Source: an uncultured Bacteroidales bacterium (GTDB lineage Bacteria > Bacteroidota > Bacteroidia > Bacteroidales > Paludibacteraceae). Taken from it: DNA of 64,000 nt. The stretch covers positions 1 to 64,000 of the forward strand of contig CAMHKW010000008.1 of the NCBI GenBank assembly GCA_946185835.1. The letters run 5' to 3'. A program made the position numbers and the translations under genes. Shown piece by piece: positions 1,050 to 12,444 of this stretch; position 1 is the stretch's first letter; every line of letters begins with the position of its first letter. The notes beneath the pieces are model-generated. The model had not been told where the DNA came from. It worked only from the letters and a program-made list of their open reading frames with translations, and did no database searches.

Positions 1050-2153
1050 ATGAATGTACAATCCTTTGTAAAGTTCCTATTTGTAGGATATGTGTGCGGC
1101 TTGGTCTTGATGATGACCGGTTGTGTCAAGTACCCCGATGAGCAGCACACCAGTTATGAAACTCTTACTCTTGCCCGTGAGACGGTTACCGCTCCGATTA
1201 AGTGGAGTGCCGCTATTCGTGGCGCCGGTGATGTGTCTATCGTAGCACGCAGCACAGGCACGCTCAATGAGATAAGAGTGAAAGACGGTCAGCGTGTGAC
1301 CGCAGGTACCGTGCTCTTTGTTCTCGACAGCCGTAGTGCTGCTAATAGTCTTGAGCATGCTAAAGCCGACTTGCAAACCGCTATAGCCAATCGTGAAAAT
1401 GCACGGTTGGAAGCCGAGAGCAACAAAGAGCTTGCCCAGCAAGGAATCATTAGCGATTATCTGTTACATAAGAGTCAGAATACGTTGCTGTCGGCTGAGG
1501 CTCAGGTTGCTCAGGCACAAGCTGCGGTGAGAGATGCTCAACTCAGACTCGACTTCTGCACAATAAAAAGTCCGGTTGACGGGTTGGTTGGAGATATACC
1601 CATGCACGTTGGCGATGTGATAGCCGAAGGTACGATGCTCACGCGTGTGGCAGGTGTAAGTAAGATGAACGCTACGTTCTCGCTTACCGAAAGCCAAGTG
1701 CATGCTGTGGTCAACGAATTAGGTTCTTTGGACGAGGTGCTCAAGATAGCTCCGCCGCTGACTTTCCGTTTTAAGGATGGCAGCGAGTACTCGGAGAAAG
1801 GGCGTATCACCAGCTTCTCGGGTTTAGTAGACCAGCGCACAGGCTCTATCACTTGTACTGTCACATTCCCCAATCCGAAGGGAGAACTCTTCTCCGGCAT
1901 GCAAGGAACGGTGGTGATGCCTGTTGAATGGACTGATGTGATGCTCGTGCCACTCACCTCTATCGTGCGTATTCAGGATAAGGTGCTGGTATATAAGGTC
2001 GGAGCCGACAGCTTGGCTACCGGTGCTATTGTCGAGATAGAAGAACTCGGTGACGGCGAACGTGCCGTTATCCTCTCCGGGGCACAAGTGGGAGAAACGA
2101 TAGTGGCAAAAGGTGCTGCCAACGTTCACGAAAACGACCGCGTGATTTGGTAG
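1050..2153 (+). CDS. RND efflux periplasmic adaptor (membrane fusion) lipoprotein
   Basis: Lipobox LMMTGC; HlyD/AcrA-type hairpin and barrel-sandwich motifs (GTLNEIRVKDGQRVTAGTVLF, GLVGDIPMHVGDVI). Confidence 0.9.
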   Translation: MNVQSFVKFLFVGYVCGLVLMMTGCVKYPDEQHTSYETLTLARETVTAPIKWSAAIRGAGDVSIVARSTGTLNEIRVKDGQRVTAGTVLFVLDSRSAANSLEHAKADLQTAIANRENARLEAESNKELAQQGIISDYLLHKSQNTLLSAEAQVAQAQAAVRDAQLRLDFCTIKSPVDGLVGDIPMHVGDVIAEGTMLTRVAGVSKMNATFSLTESQVHAVVNELGSLDEVLKIAPPLTFRFKDGSEYSEKGRITSFSGLVDQRTGSITCTVTFPNPKGELFSGMQGTVVMPVEWTDVMLVPLTSIVRIQDKVLVYKVGADSLATGAIVEIEELGDGERAVILSGAQVGETIVAKGAANVHENDRVIW

Positions 2154-2213: not shown

Positions 2214-5200
2214 ATGAGTAAAGGAAATATATTTGTAGACAGGAAGGTGATGGCAGTGTGTATCTCGCTGCTTATTGCCTTGGTTGGCTTTATATGCCTC
2301 AATACTCTGCCTATCGAGCAGTATCCTGATATAGCTCCGCCTACTGTGATGATTACCACCTCGTATAGCGGTGCCGATGCCAACACGGTGATGAAGTCGG
2401 TGGTGATGCCTATCGAGGAGGCTGTCAATGGTGTGGAGAATATGGCATATATGACCTCCGAAGCCTCTGCCACTGGTGAGGTGAGTATCAATGTCTTCTT
2501 CAAGCAAGGCACCGACCCCAACATGGCTGCTGTCAACGTGCAGAACCGCGTCTCAGCAGCATTGGGACTGTTGCCCCAAGAGGTGACGCGCGTGGGCGTG
2601 AAGGTGGAGAAACGGCAGAATAACATCTTGCAGATCACAGCCCTCGTAAGTCGTGATGGCAAGTTCGATAACGATTTCATAGCCAACTATATCGACATCA
2701 ATGTCAAGCCTCGTCTGTTGCGTGTTACGGGTGTGGGAGCTGTGCAGAACTTAGGTAACACCTATTCGCTACGAATCTGGATGAAGCCCGACGTGATGGC
2801 TCGATATGGTATCGACCCTCAGGATGTCTTCGCTGCTATAGGCAATCAGAACATGGTAGCTGCCACCGGTTCTCTTGGTGAGCAGAGCGGCAACACCTAC
2901 CAATATAACCTCGAGTACAAAGGTCGTCTGCAGTCGATAGAGGAGTTCGAAGACATTGTGTTGCGAACCTCCAACGGCAATGTGCTTCACCTGAGGGATG
3001 TGGCAGACGTAGAGCTTGGAGCACTCAGCTATAGCTTCTCGTCGCGTGTTGATGGTCAACCCGGCGTGGCTTTTATCATCAACCAAGCCCCGGGTGCTAA
3101 TGCCACCGAGGTCAACGCTGCTATTGGCGAGATTTACAGCGATCTCAAGAAGTCGATGCCTGCCGGGCTGGAATTTACCACATTGCAGACCTCCGATGAC
3201 TTCCTCTTTGCCGCTATACACAATGTGGTGGAGACGCTGATTATAGCCATCATCCTCGTCATCCTTGTGGTTTATTTCTTCCTTCAGAATTTCAAGGCGA
3301 CTCTTATCCCGTCGATTTCTATCATAGTATCGCTATTAGGTACTTTTGCTGTGGTTAAGGTGGCCGGCTTCTCGCTCAATATCTTAACCCTGTTTGCGTT
3401 AGTGCTTGCCATAGGAACTGTCGTTGACGATGCCATTGTGGTTGTTGAGGCGGTGATGGCGAAGATGGAGTCGGGCTACAAATCGGCTTATAAAGCCACC
3501 AAAGACGCCATGAGCGAAGTGACGGTTGCGGTTATCAGCTGTACGCTTGTCTTCATGGCGGTGTTTATACCTGTGACTTTCATGCCAGGCACCAGCGGCA
3601 CTTTCTTCACGCAGTTTGGTATCACCATTGCCAGCTCTGTTGGTCTGAGTTGTATCTCGGCGCTGACTCTCTGTCCGGCACTGACAGCTTTGCTGTTCAG
3701 ACCCAAAAACGAACAGAAAGAAGAACGCAAAGGTCTCAACTACTATGTTAAGACAGCTTACGAGACAGGCTATAATGCCATACTGGGCAAATATAAAAAC
3801 GGAGTGTCACGATTCTTGCAGAAACCGAATAGGGCATGGTTGTGGCTGATAGCGGCTGTCGTACTCATGGTGTTTGCGATGCGCGGTCTGCCCTCGGGCC
3901 TTGTGCCCCAAGAAGACCAAGGCGTTATCTTGGTTGACGTTACAGCACCTGCCGGCTCTCCACTTGTCGAGACCGACAAGATAATGGCTCAGGTAGAAGA
4001 ACATGTGCTCAGGTTAGAAGAGGTAGAGAGTTATGCCAAGATCTCCGGCTTCGGCCTGTTGTCGGGTACGGGCGTGAGCTATGGTACACTCGTCATACGT
4101 CTTAAACCATGGGAACAACGCAAAGGTTATGAACATTATATTGATTATGTAATGGGCAAACTTTATCTCTCATGTGAAGACATCAAAGATGCTCAGATTA
4201 TTCCTTTCCAGATGCCTCAGATTCCTGGTTACGGTAACAGCGACGGTATCGACCTGCAGATGGAAGACCTGCAAGGCGGTGACATGTCGCAGTTCAACAC
4301 CGTGGTCAACGATTTCCTTGCCGAGTTGCAGAAGCGTGAGGAGGTGCAGTTGGCGATGTCGCTCTATTCCGAGTCGTTCCCGAAATATAAAGTCGACGTC
4401 AATGCTACTCAGTGCGACCGTGCCGGTATCTCACCCGACGTGGTGCTGAATACCCTCGGTGCATACTGTGGTAGTGCATATATCAGCAACTTCAATCAGT
4501 ATGGTAAAGTCTACCGTGTGATGGCAGGAGCCGCACCTGAGTACCGTCTCGACCCAAACTCGCTTAATAACATCTTCGTGCGTGTCGGCGACCAGATGGC
4601 TCCGATAGCGCAGTTCGTCACCCTCACGCCTTCCGTGGGATCGGCTACCCAAAAGCGTTTTAACCTTTATCAGTCGATAGCTTGCTCTGTCAAACCCAAT
4701 AGCGGCTATAGCGATAGTGACGTACAGCGCGTCATCGCTGAGGTAGCAAAAGACCATCTGCCTGCCGGATACGGATACGAGTACGGAGGTATGAGCCGTG
4801 AGTTAGAGGCAAACAGCAAGTCGAATCTCACTCTGCTTATTTATCTGGTCTGCATACTGCTTATTTACATGATTCTGGCTTCGCTCTACGAGTCGTTCTT
4901 TATTCCGTTCGCAGTCCTCTTGTCGGTACCGTTCGGTCTGATGGGTTCGTTTGCCTTCTCATGGCTTTGCGGGCAACAGAATAACATATACTTGCAGACA
5001 GGTGTGATAATGCTTATCGGTCTGCTTGCCAAAACCGCTATCCTCATCACCGAGTTCGCGGTTGAGAAGCGTAAACAAGGTATGCCTATCCTTGAGGCTG
5101 CCTTGAAGGCATGCGAAGATCGACTCAGACCTATCTTGATGACCGTCATCACGATGATAGCAGGTATGATACCGCTTATCATCGAAGGCGGTGCCGGTGC

Positions 5201-6752
5201 CAATGGCAACCGCGCGCTGGCTATTGGCGTCACAGGCGGTATGGCAGTCGGCACTCTCGCTCTCGTGTTCGTGGTGCCTGCCTTCTATATCATCTTCCAG
5301 AAGCTGCACGAGCGTTTCCAAGGTGGCGAATCCGAAGCCGAGGCTGCTGTGCAGCCGGCGGAGTCGGAACCGCAACCCTCAGGCAAGAAGCCTGTGGCAG
5401 GGGTGATAGCTATAGCAGTGGTCGTAGGTTCGCTCTCGCTCTCGTCGTGCTCCATTTTTAAGCAATACCAACCCGCCGTGCAGCCGCAGCAAGACTCGGT
5501 GGTTACGGCGGTGAGCGAGGCTGATTGGAAGTCGTATATCGAAGACCCCGTGTTGCAAGGATATATAGAGAAAGCTCTGAACAGCAATGTCGACTACCGC
5601 TCTCGTCAGTTAGCTGTGCAGACAGCCGATGCCCGCCTTCGTGCTGCTAAACTCGGCTTTGTGCCAACACTCGCTCTTAGTCCGGCAAGTGTCGGGGTGT
5701 CGGGTACCGTCACTCCTGGTAGTGGTGCTTCCGGTGCTGTGCTGAGCTATCAGGTGCCCATTTCGCTCAACTGGGGTGGGGAAGGATTCGGAACCCTCAC
5801 CAACCGTAAGCGTCAGGCTGACGTGCTCCGAGCACAAGCCGAGGATAACCTCGCGGTGGCGCATGCCAACCTCGTGGCTACCATGGCAAGAGCTTATACT
5901 CAGCTCCAACTGCTCGACTACCAAGCACTCATACTCGACAGCACCGAGCTTATCTGGCAGCGCGTGCTTCAGGTGCAGCGCGTCTTAGTGAAGAACGGGC
6001 AAGCCTACTCGCCATCGGTCGGGCAGATGGAAGCCTCACTGATCAACGTGCAGATACAACGTCGGCAGCTGTTGGAACAGATCAACTCATTAGAGCTCAG
6101 TATGTGTATGCTGATGAACGAAGAACCTCATACCATAGCACGCTCGCCATGGCAGAGTTATGCCTTCGACGAATGGACTCTCGAGCCGGTGCCGGCTGCT
6201 CAGTTGAGCAACCGCGCCGACGTGCGCGCGGCAGAACGCAACGTGGCTGTGGCTTTCTATCAGACTAACATGGCGAAAGCTGCCTTCTGTCCTGCTCTGT
6301 CGCTGTCCGGACTCATCGGATGGACCAATAACGGGGGCGTGGTTGCCAACCCGGGACAACTGCTCATGAATGCCGTACTCGGGTTAGCACAGCCTATCTT
6401 CGCAGGCGGCAAACTGAAAGCCAACCTCACCGTGGCTAAGATAGAACAAGAGGAGGCTGCCAATCGCTATGTCGAGACCATGCTCCGTGCCGGTAGCGAG
6501 GTCAACGATGCTATGTTCCGCTGCCGCAATGCACAAGAGCAAGACGCACTCTATCAGCGACTGCTCACGACACAACGAGAAGCTTACAACGGGACATGCG
6601 AACTCATGCAAAAGGGCAAGGCCACTTATCTCGAAGTGCTTACTGCACAAGACGCTTATCTGAAAGCTCAACTTGCAGACGTCACCAACCGCTATAACGG
6701 ACTAATCAGCCTCATCGACCTCTATATCGCTCTCGGAGGAGGAACGAAATGA
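2214..6752 (+). CDS. RND (HAE1/AcrB-type) inner-membrane pump fused to a TolC/OprM-type outer-membrane factor
   Basis: AcrB-like residues about 1-1030 (IEQYPDIAPPTVMI, GTVVDDAIVVVEAV, GLLAKTAILITEFA), then acidic linker, hydrophobic segment with LSSC, then OMF-type coiled-coil/barrel repeats (ADVRAAERNVAVAFYQTN, PIFAGGKLKANLTVAKIEQ). Confidence 0.9.
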   Translation: MSKGNIFVDRKVMAVCISLLIALVGFICLNTLPIEQYPDIAPPTVMITTSYSGADANTVMKSVVMPIEEAVNGVENMAYMTSEASATGEVSINVFFKQGTDPNMAAVNVQNRVSAALGLLPQEVTRVGVKVEKRQNNILQITALVSRDGKFDNDFIANYIDINVKPRLLRVTGVGAVQNLGNTYSLRIWMKPDVMARYGIDPQDVFAAIGNQNMVAATGSLGEQSGNTYQYNLEYKGRLQSIEEFEDIVLRTSNGNVLHLRDVADVELGALSYSFSSRVDGQPGVAFIINQAPGANATEVNAAIGEIYSDLKKSMPAGLEFTTLQTSDDFLFAAIHNVVETLIIAIILVILVVYFFLQNFKATLIPSISIIVSLLGTFAVVKVAGFSLNILTLFALVLAIGTVVDDAIVVVEAVMAKMESGYKSAYKATKDAMSEVTVAVISCTLVFMAVFIPVTFMPGTSGTFFTQFGITIASSVGLSCISALTLCPALTALLFRPKNEQKEERKGLNYYVKTAYETGYNAILGKYKNGVSRFLQKPNRAWLWLIAAVVLMVFAMRGLPSGLVPQEDQGVILVDVTAPAGSPLVETDKIMAQVEEHVLRLEEVESYAKISGFGLLSGTGVSYGTLVIRLKPWEQRKGYEHYIDYVMGKLYLSCEDIKDAQIIPFQMPQIPGYGNSDGIDLQMEDLQGGDMSQFNTVVNDFLAELQKREEVQLAMSLYSESFPKYKVDVNATQCDRAGISPDVVLNTLGAYCGSAYISNFNQYGKVYRVMAGAAPEYRLDPNSLNNIFVRVGDQMAPIAQFVTLTPSVGSATQKRFNLYQSIACSVKPNSGYSDSDVQRVIAEVAKDHLPAGYGYEYGGMSRELEANSKSNLTLLIYLVCILLIYMILASLYESFFIPFAVLLSVPFGLMGSFAFSWLCGQQNNIYLQTGVIMLIGLLAKTAILITEFAVEKRKQGMPILEAALKACEDRLRPILMTVITMIAGMIPLIIEGGAGANGNRALAIGVTGGMAVGTLALVFVVPAFYIIFQKLHERFQGGESEAEAAVQPAESEPQPSGKKPVAGVIAIAVVVGSLSLSSCSIFKQYQPAVQPQQDSVVTAVSEADWKSYIEDPVLQGYIEKALNSNVDYRSRQLAVQTADARLRAAKLGFVPTLALSPASVGVSGTVTPGSGASGAVLSYQVPISLNWGGEGFGTLTNRKRQADVLRAQAEDNLAVAHANLVATMARAYTQLQLLDYQALILDSTELIWQRVLQVQRVLVKNGQAYSPSVGQMEASLINVQIQRRQLLEQINSLELSMCMLMNEEPHTIARSPWQSYAFDEWTLEPVPAAQLSNRADVRAAERNVAVAFYQTNMAKAAFCPALSLSGLIGWTNNGGVVANPGQLLMNAVLGLAQPIFAGGKLKANLTVAKIEQEEAANRYVETMLRAGSEVNDAMFRCRNAQEQDALYQRLLTTQREAYNGTCELMQKGKATYLEVLTAQDAYLKAQLADVTNRYNGLISLIDLYIALGGGTK

Positions 6753-6792: not shown

Positions 6793-7635
6793 ATGAAACG
6801 ATTTTATTGGTTTATAGCATTTGCATTACTTAACGCCACTTCAATTTTGGCACAACAAGACGACCATATCATCGATGGTTTGACTTCTGTTGCCGCTATC
6901 GCCGGTGAGACCAAGACCGCTGATTCACCGCAAGTAAGCGCATCGGTCGATTCGCTGAAAAAAATAGAGATCCCTGTGTGGAAGCAGAAGCTCTATTATG
7001 GCTACAAATTCGACATCTATTACCATCAGGACTCGCGTTCAGCTACCAAAGAGAATGGTTATTCTATTTCACTCACCCCCGAAATAGGATGGCGTGTGAA
7101 AGAGAAATTCTATGTCGGACTTCGCTTCGGTGGTACTTATCAAGACACTTATGCATCGTATAGCTATGAGGCATTAGACGGTACCATCCAGACCGAAGGC
7201 TTGCGCATACAGCAAGGCAGTTGGGAAGTAACCCCCTACGTGCGCTATCGGCTGAAGACTCTTTTCAACGACAAGGTGGGTGTATGGCTCGAAGCACACC
7301 TCTATGCCGGCATGGATTTTCCGCGCGTTACCGACGGCATAGTGAAAGGTACCGACTACGAAGGACTCAGACATAACATCACCTATGGTGCGCAGGTGTC
7401 GCCTGTGATAACATATCAGTTCAACAAGAAGAGCACCTTCCAGATATTCTTCTCTATCCTAAGCATAGGATATAGCGGAACTACATTCTGCTATACCGAC
7501 CCGAATACAGGCAAAAACTACAACGAGTTTACCAACGATGTGATAATCTTCTCGGGTAAACTGCGCAACCTGATAGCGAATCAGTTCACGCCCGGATTAT
7601 ATGGTCTGAGGTTAGGTGTGCAAAAAAGTTTCTAA
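6793..7635 (+). CDS. Outer-membrane beta-barrel protein
   Basis: Signal peptide, alternating aromatic/hydrophobic strands, C-terminal LRLGVQKSF. Confidence 0.7.
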   Translation: MKRFYWFIAFALLNATSILAQQDDHIIDGLTSVAAIAGETKTADSPQVSASVDSLKKIEIPVWKQKLYYGYKFDIYYHQDSRSATKENGYSISLTPEIGWRVKEKFYVGLRFGGTYQDTYASYSYEALDGTIQTEGLRIQQGSWEVTPYVRYRLKTLFNDKVGVWLEAHLYAGMDFPRVTDGIVKGTDYEGLRHNITYGAQVSPVITYQFNKKSTFQIFFSILSIGYSGTTFCYTDPNTGKNYNEFTNDVIIFSGKLRNLIANQFTPGLYGLRLGVQKSF

Positions 7636-10600
7636 ATGAAGTATAAGTCGCTGTTGTGGAAGGTCCCGCTCGCTTTGGCAGGCGTGGTGATGGGGTTAGC
7701 ATTGCTGTTGCTCGTAGCGGCTGCGGTAGTGTTGTATGTGCCTTCGGTGCGCACGGCAGTGTTGCACAAAGGCGTTGCTATAGCCAACGAGAAAACCGAC
7801 TTTGACATCGACTTAGGACGCATATACCTCTCGCCTTTCTATCACTCTCCCAAAGTCTTGTATAATGCCTACAAAGGTGTAGCAGACTTGCCCCTCAATG
7901 TCGAAATCGACAGTTTGTTTGTCGGACATCGCGGACAAGACACCTTGGCTTATGTGCATGCTCTTCGTCTGAAAGCTAAGATGCTCACTTCCGATGGCGC
8001 TACCGACATCTTATCCACGCCTATCGTTGTCGACTACTTGCATTTAGAGCAGACTACTTTCCATTCCGACAGTATGATAGCCGCTGTGGGTATTGATGCC
8101 GTGGTGGGTCGATTAGATGTGGCAAGCCCTAACCTGAATATCGCTAAAGGGCAGTTCCCGCTTTATGGTCTGAGCCTCGATGGTGCCGACGTAGGCATCG
8201 ACCTGCGCCCCACGCAGCCCGACACCACCGTCAAAGACACCACGCGCAAGCCGATGAGCTTCGACATACCCGATGGCAGCTTGAGCGACATACACTTCGC
8301 TCTCACTCCTACCGGACTCGATGTCAAGACACGGCAGCTCGCTGTCGACGCTCTGATAGATGTAGGCAACAACAGGTTTGATGTACACAAACTCGATATC
8401 GGCAATGCCTCGCTCGCAATAGGCAGTCTGTATCTGCCCTTCGACACCGTCTACGGCAATGCCTTGGTAGACCTTCGGCAGTCGCTCATCACCTCGCAAG
8501 GGTTACATGCGAGCTCCGATTCGTTGGGAGCGATAGCCGATGTCAAGGCTACCCGTCTCAACTTAGAGACGATGCATGTCGATGTTGTTGCCGATGCCGA
8601 TTTCCGCGGGAGCAAGGCGAGTGTGCGCGGCTTCTATGATATCGACGACGCAGCATACGACGCACAAGTCGACATCGAGCGTGTCGACCTCACTCCTTTC
8701 CTCAAAGACTCTACACCGGTAGTAGTGGCGGGCAAACTGAAAGCTAAAGGCAGGGGAATAGACCCACTCTCGTATGCAATGCAAAGCGAGGTGGCTCTGA
8801 ACCTTGACGATTGTGTGTATGGCGATATCGATGTATCCGGTATTGCTCTCGATGCCAAAGTGGCAGGCAAGACCGCCGATGGTACGTTGCATCTGCCGGT
8901 TAACCTCAAACGTGATGAATTGCGGGTGAAGGCACTCACTGACCATCAGTTCAGGGTGACGGACTTCTTGAAACCCGAGCAGATGGCGGTCGACTATCAT
9001 GCCAAGATGCGCCGAGTGCGAGCACATGTTGCAGGTGAAGACTTCAACGCCGAGACGTTGCAACTCAATTTTTTAACCGATAGCACCACCACGCTCGACC
9101 TCTCTACCGAAGGACTGAGTTTGGACCTCAAGAGTCCGATGCACGCCATGAGTCTTGTCAGCCGCCTTCAGCCTCTACTGAGCATGGTAGGCGACTCGTC
9201 GGTCATCAAGCCTATTACCACACTGCGTGACTTGACGCTGATAGATACGCTCCGGCATGCCATACCGCCCTTGCAAGCCAACATCAACCTTACCAAAGGC
9301 AGCCCCGTGCAGTTCCTTATCGAACGCGCAGGGCTTGACATCAACAAATTCGACTTGTCGCTTCTGTCCGACGAGCAAGAGACTCTGCTTGCTGCCGATG
9401 CCTCCATACCTGTCATCGAACACCCCGAAGACAGTACAGCCCTGCGGTTGCCTGCCGCCAAAGCAGCCATGACGGTGACGATGGCGGAGAGAAAGACAGA
9501 CGTCACGCTGAAGGCTGATAGCCGACTCACCGATGGCGCAATGACTATTCATAACCTCAATGCCGACGCCGACCTGTGTCTTGACTTAGAACGTGTCGAC
9601 AACGAAGTGAATGGCTCAGGATATCTCACCCTTAGCAATCTGCGATACGAGACTATGGACCTTGGCGACCGCAGTATGGATATCAAAATCACACCTTCAC
9701 AACGCTACCCACATTCCATACAAGCCGATGCGAGATTAGATGATGTCCCCCTCAAACTCTTAGATAACATTCTGCATCTGCCTGATATCGACCTGAAGGG
9801 AGCAGTCAGGGCACAAGCCGCTGTCGATGGTCTGCCATCGAAAGTCGACCTCTCAGCCCGTGTGTTGCCTCTTGCCGTATCAGCCGAATACAAGCCATAT
9901 CAGGTGCTGCTCTCTCTTGGCGAGACACCGATAGTGATGGAGCACAACCATCTGAACCTTAACGGGCTGCCTATCTATGGCGTTGATAGCACCTTCCTCG
10001 CTCTGACCGGTGGTCTGAACCTCGATAGTATGCGCTTGGATGTCGCACTCGAGGCTGATAGCTTCGCACCGGTCAAGTTAGTGAAAGGCGGACCGATACC
10101 GGTATATGGCGAGCTCGCCACCGATATCAGTGGTAAAGTAACCGGACCATTGGATAAGATAATGGCTGATGTCGATGTCACCATCTTACCCACCACCGAC
10201 ATCACCTATCCGATAGATAAGAAGAACCTCGCACAAGTAAAGCCGCACGGTACCGTCAATGTGAAATACGATGTAGCCGAAGGCGCACTCAACTTAGGGG
10301 GTAGGGTAAATGTCGACGATGGCGTCATACGCTATTCGCCTCGTATATACCCCGTGATGCCTTTCAGTGTCGACTCGGGTAGTCATGTCCTTTTCAACGG
10401 ACCATTAGGTCAGGCATTGGTTAATGTGTCGGCGTCGCAACACGTGAAAGCCGACGTCGAATCGGGTGGTGAGGAGACGCGACGGGTCGACTTCAACACC
10501 GGCGTCAGGGTAAACGGCGTAATCGACTCGTTAGGCCTCAATGCTATCGGTTTCTTCCTCGAAGCACCTCAAGAAGAGGCTGTCACACGCGAGCTAAGCT

Positions 10601-12444
10601 CGCTGGACGAAGAGACGCGCGAGGGCTTGGCTGCCACACTACTGGCTACGGGTATGTATGTGGGTGAGAGCAACGTGGCGGCACAGCGCGAAGGCTACGC
10701 CCTCTCGTCGATAATCAACAGCCGCATCAACGCTGCCATGGCTAACTCCAAAGTGGGGAAGTTTATGGATATCGACATCAGTAGCGGACAGACCAACCAT
10801 GCCTCAGGTAAGACCAACGACATGAACATCTCTATCAGTAAGTCGTTCTTCAAAGATAAACTGAGAGTCACTGTAGGCTCGTCGATATCTGATAATCCCG
10901 AGGTGAATAACAACAGCGGACTGTTTCGTAGTCTGACCGCCGATTATAAACTCACCAAAGACGGCAACGTGATGCTACGCTTGTTCTCGCAGCGCGACTA
11001 TAACAACATCCTTGAGGGCGAACTCTATAAGTCAGGACTCAGTGTGTTGGCAACCAAAGACTGGCAGCGGCGCGAACTGTTCCGTACGGATAGTCTTGTC
11101 AGGACATATTCACTGACAGCCGATGCGGGTGTGGCATATAGGTCTAACAACTCGCTCGGACCTAACCTCACCCTTAAGTCGTCAATCAAAAACCTGTTTG
11201 GCAACGGCGAGACCTTCTCGCTGAAAGGTAACGGAGCTTACTATTGGGCACTGCGCAACCGTCATCCCGGTGACCCTAAGAAGACCGACACCTATAAACT
11301 CGGACTCAATGCCTCACTCATCTTCCCGTTTTTGCATTGGGGTTCGATCGAAGATGGTGCCTCCAGACCCGAAGGTGATACGCGTTATATGCTTGGCTAT
11401 CAGTATGAGAATATAGCGGGAGGGTACGGAGTACATAAGTTCTCGGGTTCGTTTACATATTTCATCCGCTCGCCTTTCAGTCCGTATATCGTTCACTCGT
11501 TCACCCCCTTCTCGCTCTCTGTGGTGCGCATGAAAGCCGAGTCAGAAGACCTGCTCGATAAGGCTGCCGAATACCCGCAACTCATCAATGTCATCGCCGG
11601 TGACGAGTTCGTGCCGTCAATCGGTTACAACTTCAGCTACAACGACTACCGCGACAAACGCCCGGTCAACACTATGCTCGACCTGACCGTCAAAGAGTCG
11701 GGTAACCTAATCAATGCCCTCTATACAGCCTTCGGATATAAATGGGACGACAAGGACAAACCGCTTGGCAAGATTACCTTCAACCAGTTTGTCAAACTCT
11801 CTGCCGAGTTGCGTAATAAATTCAATCTGACAGAAAAGGTATGCATCGCCACGCGTGTGTTTGCAGGTGCTAATATGCCTTTGGGAAATTCGATGTTTGC
11901 GCCGCTATCAGAGGCTTTCTATGCCGGTGGCCCGAACTCACTGCGAGCATCAGCACCCTACGCCTATGGTCCCGGCAACTTCTATTCGGCTAAGTATAAC
12001 CAGAACTTCTTCCATGCCGGTGATTTCAAACTCGAAGCCAACTTCGAGCTGCGTTTCCCTATCGTGTGGAAACTCTATGGCGCCACCTTCCTCGATGCAG
12101 GTAATGTATGGAACTGGTATTCTACCACCGAGTTATACAAGGCTGCCGGATACGAAGACTATCTCACACGTTTTGAGATACCTACCGACTTGAACGATGG
12201 TGTCTTCGGCAACAAAGACTTCGCCCGCCAGATTGCACTCGGCACAGGTGCCGGACTCCGACTCGATATCGACGGACTCGTCGTCCGACTCGACCTCGGA
12301 ATCGGCATACATGCACCTTACCAGACATATAAATACGATAAAGACGGCAAAGTCGACTACACACAACCTATCAACACCTATTACAATATACCGTCAGTAC
12401 TCGATGCCCTGCGCGTCAACTTCGGCATAGGATACCCCTTCTAA
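7636..12444 (+). CDS. TamB-like translocation/assembly protein fused to a C-terminal TamA/TamL (Omp85-type) barrel
   Basis: N-terminal TM anchor and long beta-rich AsmA/TamB region with C-terminal DUF490-like segment (to ~11070); then barrel with AFYAGGPNSLRASAPYAYGPG, GDFKLEANFELRFPIVWKLYGATFLDAGNVW and terminal VNFGIGYPF. Confidence 0.85.
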   Translation: MKYKSLLWKVPLALAGVVMGLALLLLVAAAVVLYVPSVRTAVLHKGVAIANEKTDFDIDLGRIYLSPFYHSPKVLYNAYKGVADLPLNVEIDSLFVGHRGQDTLAYVHALRLKAKMLTSDGATDILSTPIVVDYLHLEQTTFHSDSMIAAVGIDAVVGRLDVASPNLNIAKGQFPLYGLSLDGADVGIDLRPTQPDTTVKDTTRKPMSFDIPDGSLSDIHFALTPTGLDVKTRQLAVDALIDVGNNRFDVHKLDIGNASLAIGSLYLPFDTVYGNALVDLRQSLITSQGLHASSDSLGAIADVKATRLNLETMHVDVVADADFRGSKASVRGFYDIDDAAYDAQVDIERVDLTPFLKDSTPVVVAGKLKAKGRGIDPLSYAMQSEVALNLDDCVYGDIDVSGIALDAKVAGKTADGTLHLPVNLKRDELRVKALTDHQFRVTDFLKPEQMAVDYHAKMRRVRAHVAGEDFNAETLQLNFLTDSTTTLDLSTEGLSLDLKSPMHAMSLVSRLQPLLSMVGDSSVIKPITTLRDLTLIDTLRHAIPPLQANINLTKGSPVQFLIERAGLDINKFDLSLLSDEQETLLAADASIPVIEHPEDSTALRLPAAKAAMTVTMAERKTDVTLKADSRLTDGAMTIHNLNADADLCLDLERVDNEVNGSGYLTLSNLRYETMDLGDRSMDIKITPSQRYPHSIQADARLDDVPLKLLDNILHLPDIDLKGAVRAQAAVDGLPSKVDLSARVLPLAVSAEYKPYQVLLSLGETPIVMEHNHLNLNGLPIYGVDSTFLALTGGLNLDSMRLDVALEADSFAPVKLVKGGPIPVYGELATDISGKVTGPLDKIMADVDVTILPTTDITYPIDKKNLAQVKPHGTVNVKYDVAEGALNLGGRVNVDDGVIRYSPRIYPVMPFSVDSGSHVLFNGPLGQALVNVSASQHVKADVESGGEETRRVDFNTGVRVNGVIDSLGLNAIGFFLEAPQEEAVTRELSSLDEETREGLAATLLATGMYVGESNVAAQREGYALSSIINSRINAAMANSKVGKFMDIDISSGQTNHASGKTNDMNISISKSFFKDKLRVTVGSSISDNPEVNNNSGLFRSLTADYKLTKDGNVMLRLFSQRDYNNILEGELYKSGLSVLATKDWQRRELFRTDSLVRTYSLTADAGVAYRSNNSLGPNLTLKSSIKNLFGNGETFSLKGNGAYYWALRNRHPGDPKKTDTYKLGLNASLIFPFLHWGSIEDGASRPEGDTRYMLGYQYENIAGGYGVHKFSGSFTYFIRSPFSPYIVHSFTPFSLSVVRMKAESEDLLDKAAEYPQLINVIAGDEFVPSIGYNFSYNDYRDKRPVNTMLDLTVKESGNLINALYTAFGYKWDDKDKPLGKITFNQFVKLSAELRNKFNLTEKVCIATRVFAGANMPLGNSMFAPLSEAFYAGGPNSLRASAPYAYGPGNFYSAKYNQNFFHAGDFKLEANFELRFPIVWKLYGATFLDAGNVWNWYSTTELYKAAGYEDYLTRFEIPTDLNDGVFGNKDFARQIALGTGAGLRLDIDGLVVRLDLGIGIHAPYQTYKYDKDGKVDYTQPINTYYNIPSVLDALRVNFGIGYPF

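Follow-up and report, generated by a model that had tools for sequence, protein, structure and literature searches.

A single open reading frame (ORF) in a contig from an uncultured Bacteroidales bacterium of the Paludibacteraceae raises the question of how a channel destined for the outer membrane can be synthesised attached to the end of an inner-membrane pump. The ORF lies near the start of the 64,000-nucleotide stretch of DNA that was analysed here (the window), and a preliminary description had read it as a fusion of an RND pump with an outer-membrane factor (OMF), in which a 13th helix crosses outward and signal peptidase II (SPII) cuts at an internal lipobox to release a lipidated OMF. 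Public genome data already display the fused domain architecture; what is new is the signal inside it, together with the processing that this signal implies. The proposal fits all of the comparisons reported below and is supported by them, with cleavage as a predicted step, and we consider it probable that the ORF encodes a processed polyprotein whose signal is cut internally to free a lipidated OMF.

Pump and channel in one reading frame

The ORF is uninterrupted over 1512 aa, from an ATG at 2214 to a stop codon at 6750-6752, and its translation runs from an HAE1-type RND pump (AcrB/MexB/CmeB family) into a complete OprM/CusC-type OMF, which confirms the fusion that had been claimed. The main features of the locus are as follows.

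1050 to 2153, forward strand: RND periplasmic adaptor (membrane fusion protein); TIGR01730, 202.9 bits against a cut-off of 94.9
2214 to 6752, forward strand: fused HAE1 RND pump and OMF, 1512 aa; ORF translation, Pfam and TIGR profiles
2214 to 5297, forward strand: AcrB-type pump domain, residues 1-1028; PF00873 (E 8e-283) and TIGR00915
5448 to 6749, forward strand: predicted mature OMF, Cys1079-Lys1512, 434 aa, with an OprM/CusC fold; OEP, AlphaFold2 (AF2) and Foldseek

The adaptor, which is the upstream neighbour of the fused ORF in the same operon, is itself an N-terminal lipoprotein (LMMTGC, with the signal visible in the translation). In the pump domain, the ACR_tran match (PF00873) spans residues 5-1028 and ends at nt ~5297, in agreement with the position of ~5305 that had been given for the end of the AcrB-like part; the HAE1 RND permease profile TIGR00915 scores 975.3 bits over residues 5-1039, above its curated cut-off of 940.35. 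The pump relay residues VDD, GLLAK, and RLRP were found by eye, drug/proton antiport being the predicted function. CmeB, MexB, and AcrB are the closest PDB pumps to this domain, and none of the 60 PDB pump chains listed is a fusion chain.

A TolC/OprM-type OMF at the C-terminus had also been recognised correctly. OEP (PF02321) matches there twice, with 114.5 bits against a gathering cut-off of 22, which places this part among the OMFs; the NodT-type OMF profile TIGR01845 aligns over residues 1083-1510 with 158.6 bits, below its curated cut-off of 210.05, so the C-terminal part is classified only as an OMF with an OprM/CusC fold. An AF2 model of residues 992-1512 (mean pLDDT, 82.6) contains, in this order, helix 12 of the pump, a disordered linker, a helical segment covering a hydrophobic run (model residues 71-86), Cys1079, and a complete OMF. 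When the OMF model was searched with Foldseek, the best PDB matches were CusC (3pik, E 1e-20), OprN, OprM, and palmitoylated OprM (4y1k, E 2e-18). The lipoprotein OMFs OprM and CusC thus have the same fold as the C-terminal part of the fused ORF and are lipid-anchored at their N-terminal cysteine, but, unlike that part, they are encoded by separate genes with an N-terminal signal.

Recurrence of the fusion and its split relatives

As the genome assembly is fragmented into 105 contigs, the long frame might be attributed to an assembly or sequencing error, or to a decaying gene. This explanation is refuted by the comparative data and is hardly credible: the identical fused architecture recurs in dozens of separate Paludibacteraceae rumen assemblies at 83-92% identity, more distant fused relatives are found at ~57-60% identity to the window ORF, and within the window's clade both domains are under strong purifying selection and free of internal stops. 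Two more fused HAE1 groups, C and D, come from a second family (f4), with group C ~35% identical to the window ORF and group D ~43% identical to group C. In the pump tree, groups A/B (Paludibacteraceae), C, and D are set apart by split lineages on well-supported branches, and groups C and D are each nested among split lineages on starred branches. Fused and split states alternate along the tree with nine changes, eight of which are forced by well-supported (starred) branches; the number is approximate, the tree being a quick LG+G4 reconstruction flagged for long branches, from which a spurious wrong-frame ORF (L054_0) was excluded. Several database rows with an "open frame" of 1540-1640 aa, which had been candidate fusions, proved to be split genes once fetched, and only fetched loci were therefore counted as fused. 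A megablast search of plasmids gave no match.

In split HAE1 RND operons (Prevotella and Paludibacteraceae), pump and OMF follow each other in the same order as in the fused ORF, and the OMF gene starts as an ordinary N-terminal lipoprotein (LTGC/LSSC-type boxes), i.e., with a lipobox signal of the kind seen at the fused junction; unlike in the fused ORF, a stop codon parts the pump from the OMF. In 26 of the 63 split pairs examined, pump and OMF share a frame and their open frames are separated by only one stop codon, whose loss could join them. The split sister of the window's clade (L068) has a pump that is 85% identical and an overlapping ATGA between the genes. Another split locus (L067) is placed within the window's clade and has a different OMF; its pump is 89% identical to the fused clade and the adjacent separate OMF is dissimilar (44%), a pattern which suggests that the OMF part was replaced in this locus. 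As a separate observation, 50 of the 63 split pump-OMF pairs (L067-L142, L187-L193) share a reading frame, against a chance expectation of one third; relatedness may explain this excess.

The internal signal at the junction

The preliminary description had placed an acidic linker, KK, a hydrophobic run, and LSSC between the two domains. All of these elements were found, the linker being GGESEAEAAVQPAESEPQPSG, and the position given for the codon of the lipobox cysteine (5448-5450) is exact, the codon being TGC. The parts of the junction are the following.

5322 to 5390, forward strand: cytoplasmic linker GGESEAEAAVQPAESEPQPSGKK, residues 1037-1059; comparison of relatives, model pLDDT <50
5394 to 5447, forward strand: hydrophobic region (residues 1061-1078) within the internal signal, predicted to form helix 13; AF2 and clade comparison
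5439 to 5450, forward strand: lipobox LSSC, predicted Lgt/LspA site with the cut before Cys1079; conservation of Cys and Ser(-1)

The junction has the n-region, hydrophobic region, and lipobox cysteine of an SPII substrate, from which lipidation and cleavage are predicted; in the window copy the n-region is weakly basic, with KK after the acidic linker and a net charge of 0 over 12 residues. A match to the PROSITE pattern PS51257 was rejected as evidence for the lipobox when taken alone, since the pattern is unspecific: two of the 17 cysteines of the fused protein (P0001) match it, and the second of these, Cys480, lies inside a pump transmembrane segment.

Strong evidence for the putative lipobox is its conservation across independent fusions. 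A lipobox-type cysteine closes the hydrophobic stretch in each of the 71 fused HAE1 ORFs measured across the four groups, with synonymous changes in its codon (TGC in 49 and TGT in 22), and PS51257 matches at this place in 68 of them, the remaining three deviating only at -2 (P or N); in one ORF (L173) the automatic pick was an earlier VVGC and the true box is SSGC, which does not affect the count. The loci had been recruited via motifs that lie outside the junction, and the conservation is therefore not a selection effect. A cysteine that is not conserved and a stop between the domains had both been named in advance as findings that would speak against an internal lipoprotein signal; the cysteine is kept throughout and no stop interrupts the ORF.

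The sequence around the cysteine behaves very differently. Among relatives, the linker is hypervariable in both sequence and length (~13 to 63 residues). Across the 37 members of the window's clade, in which fourfold-degenerate sites differ at ~0.6, the hydrophobic region has a pairwise identity of 22.6%, yet it is always hydrophobic, Ser(-1) and Cys(0) never vary (37/37), and the pump helix 12 next to the junction is 98.8% identical. Because an identity of 23% in this stretch goes together with an invariant Ser-Cys and ~99% identity in the adjoining pump helix, the stretch evolves like a signal peptide rather than a structural helix.

The OMF might also, or only, be translated from an in-frame start codon directly ahead of the signal and thus be made as an ordinary lipoprotein, given that the OMF of the split relatives does start there. 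The in-frame GTG which the preliminary description had offered as such a start exists, indeed twice (5394-5396 and 5403-5405), but both codons already belong to the first part of the hydrophobic run rather than preceding it; initiation at either would lose KK, and leaving out both lysines makes them poor signal-peptide starts. Other members of the set look more favourable, with an ATG at this place in 30 of the 71 fused ORFs and MKSLNK/MVKKNI-like starts in two loci (L129/L130). Against expectations calculated from the same ORFs, however, neither ATG (36.0 expected) nor in-frame ATG/GTG/TTG codons taken together (54 ORFs versus 60.7 expected) are enriched before the run, and 17 of the 71 ORFs have no such start. 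Internal initiation, from GTG or otherwise, is therefore at most a local feature and not a shared mechanism; it also leaves unexplained the fusing of split genes without a restored stop, and we regard it as very improbable.

A parallel to the predicted internal signal is provided by pump-OMF fusions of the CusA/CzcA (HME) metal-pump subfamily, which are common in Bacteroidota (~1450 aa) and arose independently of the HAE1 fusions. Like the window ORF, they encode an RND pump and then an OMF in one ORF, joined through a helix that resembles a signal peptide, but in place of the lipobox of the window ORF their junction bears a type I signal, mostly with A|Q. At the junction, all 20 fetched fusions of this kind (L143-L162; many Bacteroidota families) show a stretch of basic residues, a hydrophobic run, and a cleavage site resembling type I, with A|Q at this site in 18 of the 20. 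These junctions agree with the Bacteroidetes Q-rule, according to which Gln is usual after the signal peptidase I (SPI) site and the exposed Gln is cyclised following cleavage (PMC5837995). The two subfamilies thus keep different signal peptides at one and the same fusion position.

Predicted maturation of the polyprotein

That the ORF encodes a processed polyprotein builds on what is observed in these genomes: two intact domains are fused, the signal between them is conserved, split relatives have its counterpart at an N-terminus, and the enzymes are present, the genome encoding LspA and two Lgt; every step after translation, including topology, lipidation, cleavage, and the stoichiometric benefit, we infer. 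Ribosomes would produce a single pump-OMF chain, of which the AcrB-type part would insert by 12 helices, with the C-terminus on the cytoplasmic side. The OMF signal peptide, retained in the fusion, would insert as helix 13, with the n-region in the cytoplasm, and would lead the OMF into the periplasm via Sec. Lgt would then add diacylglycerol to Cys1079 and LspA would cleave before this residue, after which the free lipidated OMF would reach the outer membrane and trimerise, with the pump keeping a short tail and helix 13. In a tripartite pump, both the pump and the OMF are trimers, so that one ORF would supply the two subunits 1:1.

The closest precedent may be FbcH of Bradyrhizobium japonicum, a cytochrome b/c1 polyprotein in which a polytopic inner-membrane protein is followed by an internal signal peptide; SPI cleaves this signal, and the two products are subunits of the same complex. 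The window ORF likewise encodes two complete subunits with a signal peptide lying between them. FbcH differs in that its product is not a lipoprotein and remains in the inner membrane, in contrast to the fate predicted for the OMF of the fused ORF. A published LspA cut at an internal signal behind a polytopic protein was not found in the literature searched, and the processing of RND-OMF fusions is undescribed in the open literature searched, a scope outside which most subscription journals fall.

With both pump subfamilies considered, it seems likely that Bacteroidota repeatedly make tripartite efflux pumps as polyproteins, with SPII (drug-type) or SPI (metal-type) acting as the maturation protease that cuts the internal signal and yields equal amounts of pump and channel. 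If this is true, lipoprotein signal peptidase would gain an unrecognised role in polyprotein processing, members of a whole phylum would use LspA (and SPI) to obtain trans-envelope pumps from one message, and it would become clear how an outer-membrane channel can be made as the C-terminal end of a pump of the inner membrane. LspA inhibitors, e.g., globomycin, should then disable such pumps via blocked maturation, and annotations of these ORFs as single transporters would give the wrong subunit count.

Alternatively, the chain could stay whole, with helix 13 serving as an inner-membrane anchor for the OMF, and the cysteine could be either lipidated and uncleaved or incidental; that the fusion is old and widespread would suit such a tether. 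The 15-32 residues between the cysteine and the first OMF helices reach ~55-115 Å at most. Given a periplasmic part of the pump that is 70 Å high and an equatorial belt halfway along the 100 Å barrel of the OMF (dimensions from a Chem Rev review), at least ~120 Å would be needed, with the adaptor gap uncounted; as these are E. coli/Pseudomonas dimensions, the short segment is suggestive rather than decisive evidence against a tether. An uncleaved anchor would also have no need of an invariant Ser-Cys beside a fast-changing helix, and the metal-pump fusions retain SPI sites with A|Q. A neighbouring TamB-TamL fusion is conserved and probably does remain whole, which lends the tether some plausibility; no internal lipobox was found in that fusion, as expected of a chain that stays whole. 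We consequently judge an uncleaved tether to be unlikely and retain the processed polyprotein as our reading of the fused ORF.

The TamB-TamL fusion is a 1602-aa ORF (7636-12444, forward strand) with a TamB domain (PF04357, 27.6 bits, over the cut-off) and a TamL/Omp85 barrel, which are fused alike in at least 11 relatives; it is possibly a single-chain bridge between both membranes and can probably span the periplasm alone. Between the pump and this fusion lies a 280-aa ORF (6793-7635, forward strand) with a signal peptide and a weak match to an outer-membrane barrel (E 0.038).
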